This document shows positions 3,377 through 7,903 of a DNA stretch of 7,903 nt, one piece after another. Origin of the DNA: Thermoprotei archaeon ex4572_64. GTDB lineage: Archaea > Thermoproteota > Thermoprotei > Thermoproteales > Thermocladiaceae. Where the stretch lies: contig NJDF01000006.1 of assembly GCA_002254895.1 (NCBI GenBank), positions 1 to 7,903 on the forward strand, written 5' to 3'. Both the position numbers and the translations under genes were made by a program. Position 1 is the stretch's first letter. Each line of letters starts with the position of its first letter. Under the pieces are notes generated by a model. It was not told the origin of the DNA and did not search any database. It saw only the letters and a program-made list of their open reading frames with translations.

Positions 3377-4489
3377 ATGTTTGAAGAATATGTCCCTAAA
3401 TTTGCAAAATTACTTATCGACTACTGTATTGAAGCTAAATCTGGTGATGAAGTGTTAATTACTTCAACTCTCGAAGCTAAATTATTAATTAAGCATTTAA
3501 TTAAGGAACTCGTACTGAAAGATGCGTATCCACTAGTTAATCTTCTTGATGAGGAGTTAATCGAGACGTTCTATGAATATGCAGGTGATAGTGTTCTTAA
3601 ACACTTATCAAAAATTGACTATGACTATGCTGAAGTACCTAATGCAAGTATTAGAGTAATCTCATCAACACACACAAAATACCTAGCAAGTATTGATAGT
3701 GAGAAAATTCGTAAAAGACAAGCAGCTTTAAAACCTTTAACAGAAATCTTCAACAAACGTGATGAGGAGGGTTCACTAAGATGGTGCGTAACTATCTACC
3801 CCACAAAAGCACTTGCACAGCAGGCAGAAATGAGTCTTAAACATTATGAAGAATTCATTATAAAGGCATGCATGCTTGATAAGGAAGATCCAGTAAAAGG
3901 ATGGTTAAACTTTAGTAAAGAATTGTATAGAGTATGTGATGAACTATCAAGACGTACAGAGTTTAGAATAGTGCATCCTGACGGTACGGATTTAAGAGTT
4001 GTAGTTGACAAGTCTAGAAAATGGATTGTAGATGATGGTAAGAACAATATGCCAGGCGGTGAAATCTTCACAGCACCTGTAGAGGAGAGTATTGAAGGCA
4101 CTATAGTGTTTTCAGGAATTCAAAACTTTAGAGGAATGTTTGATATTGAAAACATCAAGCTCAGAGTCAAGAATGGTGTGATAGTTGACGCTAAGGCAGA
4201 GAAAGGTCAAGAATTTCTTGAGAAGATAGTAAATACTGATGAAGGTTCAAGAAGATTTGGTGAACTCGGTATTGGATTTAATTATGGAATAACAAGAATA
4301 ACAAGACAAGTACTGCTTGATGAAAAGATAGGTGGAACTATACATTTAGCTATAGGTATGGCTTATAGAAGATGTGGTGGTAAAAATGAATCATCAATAC
4401 ATTGGGACTTAATTAAGGATATGAGAAGTGGTGGTAAAATATATGCTGATGGAGAGCTAATTTACGAGAATGGCAAATTCACAATCTAA
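3377..4489 (+). CDS. M29-family metallo-aminopeptidase
   Basis: A 370-residue cytoplasmic aminopeptidase of MEROPS family M29 (aminopeptidase T/AmpS type), which removes N-terminal residues from peptides using two metal ions. The C-terminal half carries the full family signature. It has NMPGGEIFTAPVE at 224-236 with ligand E229, GELGIGFNYGI at 295-305 with E296, and IGGTIHLAIGMAY at 318-330 with H323 and the conserved Tyr330. SSIHWDLIKDMR at 339-350 has H342 and D344. The N-terminal half is the more variable domain. Bacterial members are about 408-413 residues; archaeal ones near 370 are common. The ATG is placed about 25 bases after a TATA box, with no Shine-Dalgarno sequence, as expected for a leaderless message. 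The stop TAA overlaps the opposite-strand stop at 4486-4488. The role is probably peptide turnover; neighbours give no pathway hint. Confidence 0.93.
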   Translation: MFEEYVPKFAKLLIDYCIEAKSGDEVLITSTLEAKLLIKHLIKELVLKDAYPLVNLLDEELIETFYEYAGDSVLKHLSKIDYDYAEVPNASIRVISSTHTKYLASIDSEKIRKRQAALKPLTEIFNKRDEEGSLRWCVTIYPTKALAQQAEMSLKHYEEFIIKACMLDKEDPVKGWLNFSKELYRVCDELSRRTEFRIVHPDGTDLRVVVDKSRKWIVDDGKNNMPGGEIFTAPVEESIEGTIVFSGIQNFRGMFDIENIKLRVKNGVIVDAKAEKGQEFLEKIVNTDEGSRRFGELGIGFNYGITRITRQVLLDEKIGGTIHLAIGMAYRRCGGKNESSIHWDLIKDMRSGGKIYADGELIYENGKFTI

Positions 4490-4788
4490 TAGAAAGGCAT
4501 GTAAACTCTACATAGGTTAGGGTTAAGACCAAGTCTACACCTGCACTTACCAGGAACTAGATCTTCAATAATGATCATTGAGAATTTACATTTAGAGCAA
4601 GGAATCTGTGCTTCAAGATTTCTCAAAATCTCATTAACAAGCTCATCAAAGCTCATGGATAATATCTTTCTAGCTCTAAATGTGAGATCTCTATCACTAT
4701 CATTACGATTCAAGACCTCTCTAGCATGGTCTCTATACGTTAGTGCCAATTTAATAATGTCAATATCAGACCATGCGATTGCGATCAT
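4486..4788 (-). CDS. Small Cys-rich protein, possible zinc ribbon, 100 residues
   Basis: An unrecognised protein with a helical N-terminal half and a C-terminal half with paired cysteines. These are IPCSKC (C64, C67), GKCRCRLG (C82, C84) and LCRVY (C93), which could hold one zinc ion. No signal or membrane segment is visible. The ATG at 4788 is preceded by GGTGAT, which looks like a Shine-Dalgarno sequence. However, that ATG and the upstream bases lie inside a box C/D sRNA (box C 4808-4814, box D 4766-4769), so the apparent ribosome site may be only guide and box sequence. A TTG at 4747-4749 is the first in-frame alternative start downstream of the sRNA and would give 87 residues. The stop TAG overlaps the stop of the M29 gene on the other strand. 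The gene lies 68 bases downstream of another Cys-pair protein gene in the same direction. Confidence 0.62.
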   Translation of the reverse strand: MIAIAWSDIDIIKLALTYRDHAREVLNRNDSDRDLTFRARKILSMSFDELVNEILRNLEAQIPCSKCKFSMIIIEDLVPGKCRCRLGLNPNLCRVYMPFY

Positions 4789-4818
4789 GAATCACCCGGT
4801 TGATCCTTCATCACTAAC
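4760..4818 (-). ncRNA. Box C/D guide sRNA with both guides against the 5' end of 16S rRNA
   Basis: On the minus strand the order is box C GTGATGA (4808-4814), a 12-base guide (4796-4807), degenerate D' GTGA (4792-4795), degenerate C' ATGATCG (4782-4788), a guide (4770-4781), and box D CTGA (4766-4769). The box C to box D span is 49 bases, normal for archaea. The first guide is exactly complementary to CCGGUUGAUCCU, the near-universal start of archaeal 16S rRNA (the 21F primer site). The second is complementary to CCAUGCGA, found near position 50 of many archaeal 16S rRNAs. By the box-plus-five rule the methylated bases would be the U of CCGGU (U8 in Sulfolobus numbering) and the U of CCAUG (U52). 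As I recall, U52 is the reported target of Sulfolobus sR1. A TATA box at 4839-4846 sits about 26 bases before the expected 5' end. The ends given are estimates. Confidence 0.82.
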
Positions 4819-4838
4819 TCATTATGATTAGTTACCTA

Positions 4839-4846
4839 CTTAAACT
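4839..4846 (-). promoter_or_regulatory. TATA box of the 16S-guide sRNA
   Basis: AGTTTAAG on the minus strand, preceded by a purine-rich GATA stretch, centres on about 4842.5. A start 25-26 bases downstream falls at about 4817, three bases before box C of the sRNA, which is the usual 5' margin for archaeal C/D RNAs. It lies just downstream of the stop of the preceding gene, so the sRNA need not depend on operon read-through. Confidence 0.6.
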
Positions 4847-6797: not shown

Positions 6798-6955
6798 GTG
6801 GTCCGCACTACCTCGTGGGTAAGTGTAACCCCTCTTCTGTACTGTTTATCTCAGGTCCTACCCAGACCATCCCCCACGGCAGTTCATCGGTCTCTACTTG
6901 GACCACCGCCCCTTGACGGGTTTTACCCCGAGGGTTGGACTCGCTAGGCGGGTCT
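6798..6955 (-). ncRNA. GC-rich structured RNA candidate, possibly a minimal RNase P-like RNA
   Basis: Bases 6801-6950 are about 58% G+C in an otherwise AT-rich window and contain no convincing frame. Pairings are nested: GTGGTCC 6798-6804 with GGACCAC 6900-6906; ACTACC 6807-6812 with GGCAGT 6878-6883; and GTGGG 6815-6819 with CCCAC 6873-6877. A separate hairpin stack lies at about 6904-6953, with CGGG/CCCG at its tip. I favour the minus strand: TTTAAAAG at 6975-6982 predicts a start at about 6954, exactly where the GC-rich part begins, and a C/D sRNA lies upstream on the same strand. Minus-strand bases about 6853-6825 read AGATAAAC, ACAGAA and GGGTTA, resembling conserved regions IV and V of RNase P RNA. 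However, I find no clear conserved region I and the helix order does not fit, so that identity is tentative. The ends are estimates. Confidence 0.6.
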
Positions 6956-6974
6956 GAAGATTATATTGTTCTAG

Positions 6975-6982
6975 CTTTTAAA
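6975..6982 (-). promoter_or_regulatory. TATA box of the GC-rich RNA candidate
   Basis: TTTAAAAG on the minus strand, with an A-rich stretch just upstream. The centre, about 6979, is 25-26 bases before 6954, where the G+C-rich segment begins. It lies between the C/D sRNA and this RNA, so the two can be transcribed separately. Confidence 0.55.
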
Positions 6983-6991
6983 TTTCTTCTC

Positions 6992-7049
6992 CTAATCAGT
7001 GAGAGGAAGATTCATCAGAACTCAGTGCGACCGAAAGTTCATCACTATG
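6992..7049 (-). ncRNA. Box C/D guide sRNA with canonical boxes, target unassigned
   Basis: On the minus strand the order is box C GTGATGA (7039-7045), a 13-base guide (7026-7038), box D' CTGA (7022-7025), a 3-base spacer, box C' CTGATGA (7012-7018), a 12-base guide (7000-7011), and box D CTGA (6996-6999). Box C to box D spans 50 bases. All four boxes match consensus, apart from the first base of C'. The D' guide would pair with UGCGACCGAAAGU and the D guide with UGAGAGGAAGAU. By the box-plus-five rule both methylated bases would be A. I cannot assign these targets from memory. Short CTA/TAG segments just outside boxes C and D could close the terminal stem. A TATA-like TTTTATGA sits about 26 bases before the expected 5' end. 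The ends are estimated at three to four bases outside the boxes. Confidence 0.82.
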
Positions 7050-7095: not shown

Positions 7096-7903
7096 ATGTT
7101 TAGTCATGATTTTAAGATTGAGATGTTAATGAAGGCTGTTAAAATATACTCACCTACAGGTCATGAGAGAATGATGTTGGTAATGTAATTGCTATTAGAG
7201 GTAAGGGAGATCCAACTCTCTGGCTTCACGCACATATGGACACTGTTCCCGGCTATTTAGAGGTCAAGTTAAGTAATGGTAAGCTTTACGGTAGAGGTGC
7301 ATGTGATGATAAGGCATCACTTTTAGCTATGGCTTTTGCTTTCCTAGAAGTTGAGGAGATTAGAGGAACTTTAATGTATGTAGGTGTTGTTGATGAGGAA
7401 GGAGATAGTTCAGGTACTAGATACTTAATTGAAAATGCAGGTAAAAGCATACCTAAACCTAACGCCATCATTATTGGTGAACCTACAGGTCTTGATAAGA
7501 TAGTAACTACTTATAGAGGTGGCTTTATTGTTAAAGTGAAGGTTAAGTCTAGAGGTGGTCATGCATCAAGCCCCATAACTACTACAAATCCTATAGTTAA
7601 AGTTTACGAAATTTACAATAAGTTGTGTAGATTGTTAAGTGTAGGAAATGCTTACGATTCAATAAGTATAACACCTACAGTAATTAAGGGTGGTGATTTT
7701 GAAAATAAAATACCAACCACGTGTGAGATGATTTTAAACATTAGAATACCTCCAAAGACTAATTGTTTGGAAGTATTAGAGAGACTTAACAGATTTATTA
7801 AAGAGTTAAGCATTGATAACTCTACATCAATCACCTACTCTAGATGTATCGAACCTGTAAATCTACGTATTGATAATCCCATAGCTAGAGCAGTAACTAG
7901 AGC
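7096..7903 (+). pseudogene. lysK: LysK-type [LysW]-lysine/ornithine hydrolase, frame-disrupted and cut by window end
   Basis: Members of this M20 metallopeptidase branch release lysine (or ornithine) from the carrier protein LysW. From ATG 7096 the frame gives MFSHDFKIEMLMKAVKIYSPTGHER, the expected N-terminal helix, then stops at TAA 7186-7188. The catalytic part continues in another frame from about 7167 to the window end, beginning DVGNVIAIRGKGDPTL. It shows HAHMDTVPG (metal His at 7233-7235, Asp at 7239-7241), GRGACDDK (bridging Asp at 7305-7307), DEEGDSSG (Glu pair at 7395-7400), GEPTGLDK (Glu at 7479-7481) and YRGG. Relatives have about 20 more residues between SPTGHE and GN, so the simplest explanation is a deletion of roughly 60 bases (length 3n+1) near 7171-7176, in the genome or in the assembly. 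The last metal His lies beyond the window. Family assignment is firm; loss of function is inference. Confidence 0.82.

Follow-up and report, generated by a model that had tools for sequence, protein, structure and literature searches.

Within the window, by which we mean the whole 7,903-nt stretch of DNA that was analysed, positions 4766–4814 of the minus strand very probably hold an archaeal C/D box sRNA of the standard double-guide kind, with predicted targets at U8 and U52 of 16S rRNA (Table 1). Boxes C, D′, C′ and D follow one another from 4814 down to 4766, the order that an earlier note on this DNA had claimed for the minus strand, and they frame guides of ~10–13 nt. The G and A letters of the boxes and the covarying pairs beside them agree with a C/D k-turn and a C′/D′ k-loop, and the complementarity of the guides to the rRNA of relatives is in the correct register. 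The mature RNA probably ends a few nucleotides beyond the 49-nt core on each side, at about 4760–4820. A covariance-model search, which the note had proposed as a check, did not bear the assignment out: Rfam gave no family for 4760–4818 up to an E value of 5. The class of such sRNAs is already known, and the individual RNA is a further member of it.

Table 1. Positions of the sRNA, its parts and other features of the window.
Feature	Positions	Strand	Remarks
TATA-like box TTTAAGTA	4837..4844	-	5′ end 30 nt before box C and ~26 nt before the expected start of the RNA; putative promoter
Core of the C/D box sRNA, boxes C through D	4766..4814	-	49 nt
Box C, GTGATGA	4808..4814	-	Read from the sequence
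D′ guide AGGATCAACCGG	4796..4807	-	Perfect complement of relatives' 16S nt 4–15; RNAduplex −21.7 kcal/mol
Box D′, GTGA	4792..4795	-	Read from the sequence; base 1 Watson-Crick with C′ base 6 in 9/9 family members
Loop D′–C′, TTC	4789..4791	-	3 nt; putative k-loop
Box C′, ATGATCG	4782..4788	-	Sequence and family comparison
D guide CAATCGCATGGT	4770..4781	-	Pairs with GCCAUGCGA of relatives' 16S; RNAduplex −15.3 kcal/mol
Box D, CTGA	4766..4769	-	Read from the sequence
ORF, 100 aa	4486..4788	-	ATG at 4786–4788 coincides with the first three bases of box C′; no Pfam family
Second C/D sRNA candidate	6996–7045	-	Same architecture pattern
Truncated RNase P RNA match, weak	6815–6999	-	RF02357, 27.9 bits, below the gathering score of 60

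Promoter, overlapping reading frame and genome setting

A TATA box had been claimed at the right distance upstream, and TTTAAGTA is found there. The distance usual for archaeal TATA boxes fits an RNA start near 4818; the sRNA is probably transcribed from a TATA-like promoter of its own, and the transcript could run on into the ORF at 4486–4788. The sRNA overlaps the 5′ end of this ORF, an overlap absent from the earlier note. Homologues of the ORF form one cluster (P0121) of three members, 100 aa long and 90% identical, which indicates that it is probably a gene, and a close relative is evident from the protein clusters P0121 (90%) and P0122 (95%). P0121 had no match in 81 genomes of the class of genome G009 or in 229 of the class of genome G004. 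By tblastn, none of eight window proteins was found in the relatives' loci L015 and L102–L114. In L015, as judged by eye, it is an upstream reading frame that the sRNA overlaps, at the frame's 3′ end, with the TGA stop falling inside D′. Among archaeal C/D genes, 25% overlap the 3′ end of an ORF and 7% the 5′ end, a TATA-like motif accompanies 20%, and in cases of 5′ overlap the transcription of the downstream gene is lowered, according to passages of PMC7994747.

rRNA targets of the two guides

The rRNA targets were judged on the 16S and 23S rRNA of relatives, not on those of the host itself, and target positions were converted to E. coli K-12 numbering. In the relatives' 16S, the D′ guide is the complement of nt 4–15 over its whole length, and its N+5 target is predicted to be U8 (E. 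coli U13). The D guide pairs at CCAUGCGA, forming eight Watson-Crick pairs and one G-U pair with GCCAUGCGA, and its predicted N+5 target is U52 (E. coli 56). The perfect 12-base complement, the eight-base pairing of the second guide and the predicted methylations at about U8 and U52, all put forward in the earlier note, are thereby reproduced on relatives. We take U52 to be the target of sR1 of Sulfolobus acidocaldarius as well, so that the two RNAs would presumably share this predicted methylation.

For the comparison, 33 related 16S genes were assembled (3 plus 30 further loci), 16S having been detected in 45 of the 81 genomes of G009's class. The first target, CCGGUUGAUCCU (CCGGTTGATCCT), stands at the 16S 5′ end in 33/33, and the second, CCAUGCGAG, lies at or near nt 49 in 22/33; the spellings at nt ~49 are CCATGCGAG (22 genes), CCATGGAAG (7), CCATGCAAG (2) and CCATGGGAG (2). 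When 13 rRNA regions of at most 4.7 kb (three of ~3 kb) were scanned in register, the best seven rows for each guide all fell at nt 8 (D′) or nt 52 (D). Within the first 80 nt, the best site of the D guide was nt 52 or its equivalent in 26/33 genes and elsewhere in 7/33. Genome G234, the one carrier of the guide pair (see below) whose own 16S (L159) was read, has both targets. A literature text search with the guide letters and archaea matched no paper, and guides to nt 8 and nt 52 were not found together in the literature passages on archaeal C/D sRNAs that were consulted.

Chance controls

The architecture pattern matched twice in the window against once in 400 dinucleotide shuffles, a figure that indicates rarity and is not a clean test, since the pattern was drawn up with the window already in view. 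CCGGTTGATCCT with at most one mismatch occurred in 1/200 shuffles, and a perfect 12-nt register-correct match within one 4.7-kb rRNA region (L080) in 0/3000 random guides. The D guide alone is not significant, as 20% of random guides equal its score somewhere in the L080 region, and the second target therefore rests on position and on conservation of the pair. The best sites of the two guides are 44 nt apart; best sites fell within 60 nt of each other in 2.8% of 1500 random pairs.

Conservation of the guide pair

At least 8 of the 81 genomes of G009's class (G009, G346, G268, G272, G409, G327, G307 and G234; loci L015, L102–L106, L155 and L156) carry the nt 8/nt 52 guide pair. In all nine sequences, window included, C′ base 6 and D′ base 1 make a Watson-Crick pair, of the C-G, G-C or U-A type, which happens in 0.45% of permutations with kinship ignored, a figure that overstates the evidence because several of the nine are close kin. 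The neighbouring C′ base 5 and D′ base 2 are G-C or C-G in six, U-U in two and A-G in one. Judged by eye, one or two bases beside D′ fail to match the 16S 5′ end in the D′ guides of L102–L106, as does a single base at the far end in those of L155 and L156; the D-guide base beside box D is unpaired with the common GCCATG in L015, L102–L105, L155 and L156.

The 5′-end guide alone is widespread among archaea. A search that allowed up to two mismatches retrieved it from 34/41 genomes of G008's genus (the G008 record is titled Thermococcus) with no match of the control, and from 66/226 genomes of G004's class with one. With three allowed, 19/81 genomes of G009's class were retrieved against six control matches, so that single matches in this class need reading. 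These 19 comprise eight with the window-type pair, eight with a GGAGGTGA guide, G011 with a TTCAGCCTT guide, G315 without further boxes, and G048 (3 mismatches), which was left unread. Spelled exactly, box C plus the 5′-end guide occurs in 12/398 genomes of G009's phylum (reversed control 0) and in 25 records of the genome collection, of which the titles mark 18 as archaeal and 7 as bacterial; by our own estimate, the seven are about the number due by chance, and the archaeal share would give far fewer.

Exact patterns for both guides retrieved only L015 among the 81 genomes of G009's class and 15/226 genomes in G004's class; exact spelling proved too strict, because the mismatch-tolerant search found further carriers. 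In six of the 15 (L003, L093, L094, L097, L098 and L099), the 5′-end guide is present, as read by eye, and CATGG is the start of a downstream ORF; the printed match of G317 resembles these six. By eye, the order appears reversed in G563 (L157), whose guides seem to target nt 52 and the 5′ end. For the other seven, neither the printed match nor the sequence around it contains box words. As a separate observation, the sRNA with the 5′-end guide stands directly upstream of an ORF starting MAYTWEPKWE in L003, L093, L097, L098 and L099 (G004's class), and L039 has a similar setting (YTWEPKWE), a gene neighbourhood that appears by eye to be kept.

Relatives with other partner guides

Eight genomes of G009's class (G100, G390, G378, G402, G411, G299, G277 and G159; loci L107–L112, L114 and L154) combine the 5′-end guide with a D guide containing GGAGGTGA. 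Their D′ guides, GGATCAAC in L107–L112 and L114 and GGATTAAC in L154, target the 16S 5′ end, while GGAGGTGA is the complement of the 16S 3′-terminal TCACCTCC, a site carried by the own 16S 3′ ends of three of these genomes. The fit to the 3′ end UCACCUCC has RNAduplex values of −17.5 (L111) and −15.7 (L107), and an sRNA of this kind could link the 5′ and 3′ ends of 16S. Of four spellings scanned in register, only that of L111 scored highest at the 3′ end. In 7/8 of these RNAs (all but L111), the three bases adjoining box D are, by eye, left unpaired at the 3′ end; such a gap may impair methylation while leaving binding intact.

A second combination pairs the 5′-end guide with TTCAGCCTT (L016, L017, L018, L020, L024, L031, L032 and, by eye, L158), which is complementary to helix 27 (E. 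coli ~899–908) in its loop and 3′ arm, not far from where eukaryotic U3 makes its second contact. Scored against the 16S of its own genome, the L018 guide fits helix 27 better than any other 16S site (17.5), and so do the L016 and L024 guides when scored against L018's 16S. For L017, L020, L031 and L032, however, helix 27 (17.5) is outscored by a site around E. coli 616 (18.0). Other partner guides point to E. coli 564–570, ~510 and ~820. The automatic parse of partner guides left 40/73 rows without a site scoring at least 16, and 25/34 in the set scored on L075; no partner is assigned to these rows. Such swapping of partners fits the modular guide evolution described for archaeal C/D sRNAs in passages of PMC4644070.

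The central pseudoknot and comparison with U3

The target of the D′ guide, nt 4–15, includes UCCU at nt 12–15 (E. coli 17–20), which can pair with AGGA (915–918) in 9/9 aligned archaeal 16S sequences. Since the guide covers UCCU, binding of the sRNA and formation of the central pseudoknot are predicted to be mutually exclusive. By analogy with general C/D biology, L7Ae would bind the C/D k-turn and the C′/D′ k-loop, Nop5 and fibrillarin would then join, and the guides would direct 2′-O-methylation of 16S U8 and U52. As long as it stayed bound, the sRNP would, judging from the pairing, hold the central pseudoknot open. A role in rRNA end maturation or folding is plausible.

We take yeast and archaeal numbering to correspond at the 5′ end. 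On this footing, the D′ guide sits on rRNA bases bound by eukaryotic U3, which suggests a U3-like role for the 5′-end guide; yeast U3 pairs with 18S nt 9–16 and also with helix 27, on its 5′ arm (PMC5354517). U3 combines C′/D and B/C motifs with a long 5′ region and also binds the 5′ external spacer, as described in passages of PMC8162545, and it is not known to methylate, whereas the window sRNA consists of the 49-nt C/D′/C′/D core only. U3's second contact, helix 27, is matched by a guide only in relatives such as L018, the D guide of the window sRNA going to nt 52 instead, and the relatives' guide uses the loop and 3′ arm where U3 uses the 5′ arm. From the archaeal C/D sRNAs of the Sulfolobus, Pyrococcus and Pyrobaculum sR families, by contrast, the window sRNA is no different in kind: box order, box sequences, the N+5 rule and two guides to nearby sites are shared (PMC4644070), and the TATA-like motif and the overlap with an ORF start, both present here, each occur in a minority of them (PMC4644070, PMC7994747).

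While the sRNA itself is one more guide RNA, its significance lies in its rRNA site. U3 chaperones the 18S 5′ end in eukaryotes, and the site raises the question of an archaeal counterpart. We consider it rather improbable that archaea possess a U3 equivalent in the form of an ancient C/D guide on the 5′ strand of the pseudoknot, kept in Thermococci and several groups of Thermoproteota, whose second guide would have been swapped between nt 52, helix 27, ~564–570 and perhaps the 3′ anti-Shine-Dalgarno end; the window RNA would be one form of it, and eukaryotic U3 a descendant or a functional parallel. The presence of the 5′-end guide in much of the genus Thermococcus (34/41 genomes searched) makes the question testable in a genetically tractable archaeon. 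A literature search that covered few subscription papers gave, among the matches listed, no title or abstract opening linking archaeal C/D guides to the U3 site.

Alternative explanations

The RNA might chiefly serve rRNA folding, as a C/D sRNP that holds the nascent 16S 5′ end and, like U3, delays the central pseudoknot; we think this unlikely. The coverage of nucleotides bound by U3 (yeast 18S nt 9–16; PMC5354517) speaks for it, as do the recurrence of the 5′-end guide in distant archaea with partners to helix 27, ~564–570, ~510, ~820 and possibly the 16S 3′ end, and the unpaired bases beside box D in 7/8 GGAGGTGA RNAs, seen by eye, which may hurt methylation and not binding. However, the boxes and their spacing are those of methylation guides, and the partner site at nt 52 is so close in sequence that long-range bridging is not needed. 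Within helix 27, the archaeal guide also takes the loop and 3′ arm, not the 5′ arm used by U3; four of the helix 27 guides (L017, L020, L031 and L032) score slightly higher at the E. coli 616 site, just one of four GGAGGTGA spellings has its top site at the 16S 3′ end, and more than half of the partner rows (40/73; 25/34 on L075) have no site of at least 16. Passages in the literature weigh against it too: U3 and processing-only snoRNPs are described as not known in archaea (PMC8339473), U3-like sRNAs as apparently absent (PMC3608112), and a 1995 claim of an archaeal U3-like RNA as an artefact, with a small RNA for U3's job still awaited (PMC3879963).

That the element is instead a k-turn-like leader of the mRNA of ORF 4486–4788, which would bind L7Ae and regulate translation while the rRNA match is incidental, seems very improbable to us. 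The ATG inside box C′ and the conservation of the ORF at the same length would suit such a leader, and translational regulation by archaeal L7Ae has been proposed (PMC5539422), but both guides are kept in the same order in eight other genomes, at six of these loci (L015 and L102–L106) none of the eight window proteins was found nearby by tblastn, a perfect 12-nt rRNA guide would be left unexplained, and overlap with an ORF 5′ end is known for 7% of archaeal C/D genes (PMC7994747). That box-like words and a word antisense to 16S came together by chance deserves hardly any credence: box motifs are short, the window is AT-rich and the D guide alone is within chance, yet the pattern matched once in 400 shuffles, 0/3000 random guides gave the perfect match, and the family is conserved with covariation (0.45% of permutations reach nine Watson-Crick pairs when kinship is ignored). 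The double-guide C/D sRNA remains the preferred reading of 4766–4814.

Other features of the window

For the second C/D sRNA candidate, at 6996–7045, the best register-correct site of the D′ guide in relatives is GGCGACCGAAAG, downstream of 16S (23S), and that of the D guide is TGAGAGGAGG in 16S, at ~nt 1003–1011 where no intron shifts it. The 5′ end of the RNase P RNA match touches the 3′ end of this candidate, so that the two may form one transcript. At ~7100–7903, a peptidase-like frame (SPTGHERM, then GDPTLWLHAHMDTVPG) seems, by eye, to be broken near 7170–7200, through a frameshift, a deletion or an assembly error.
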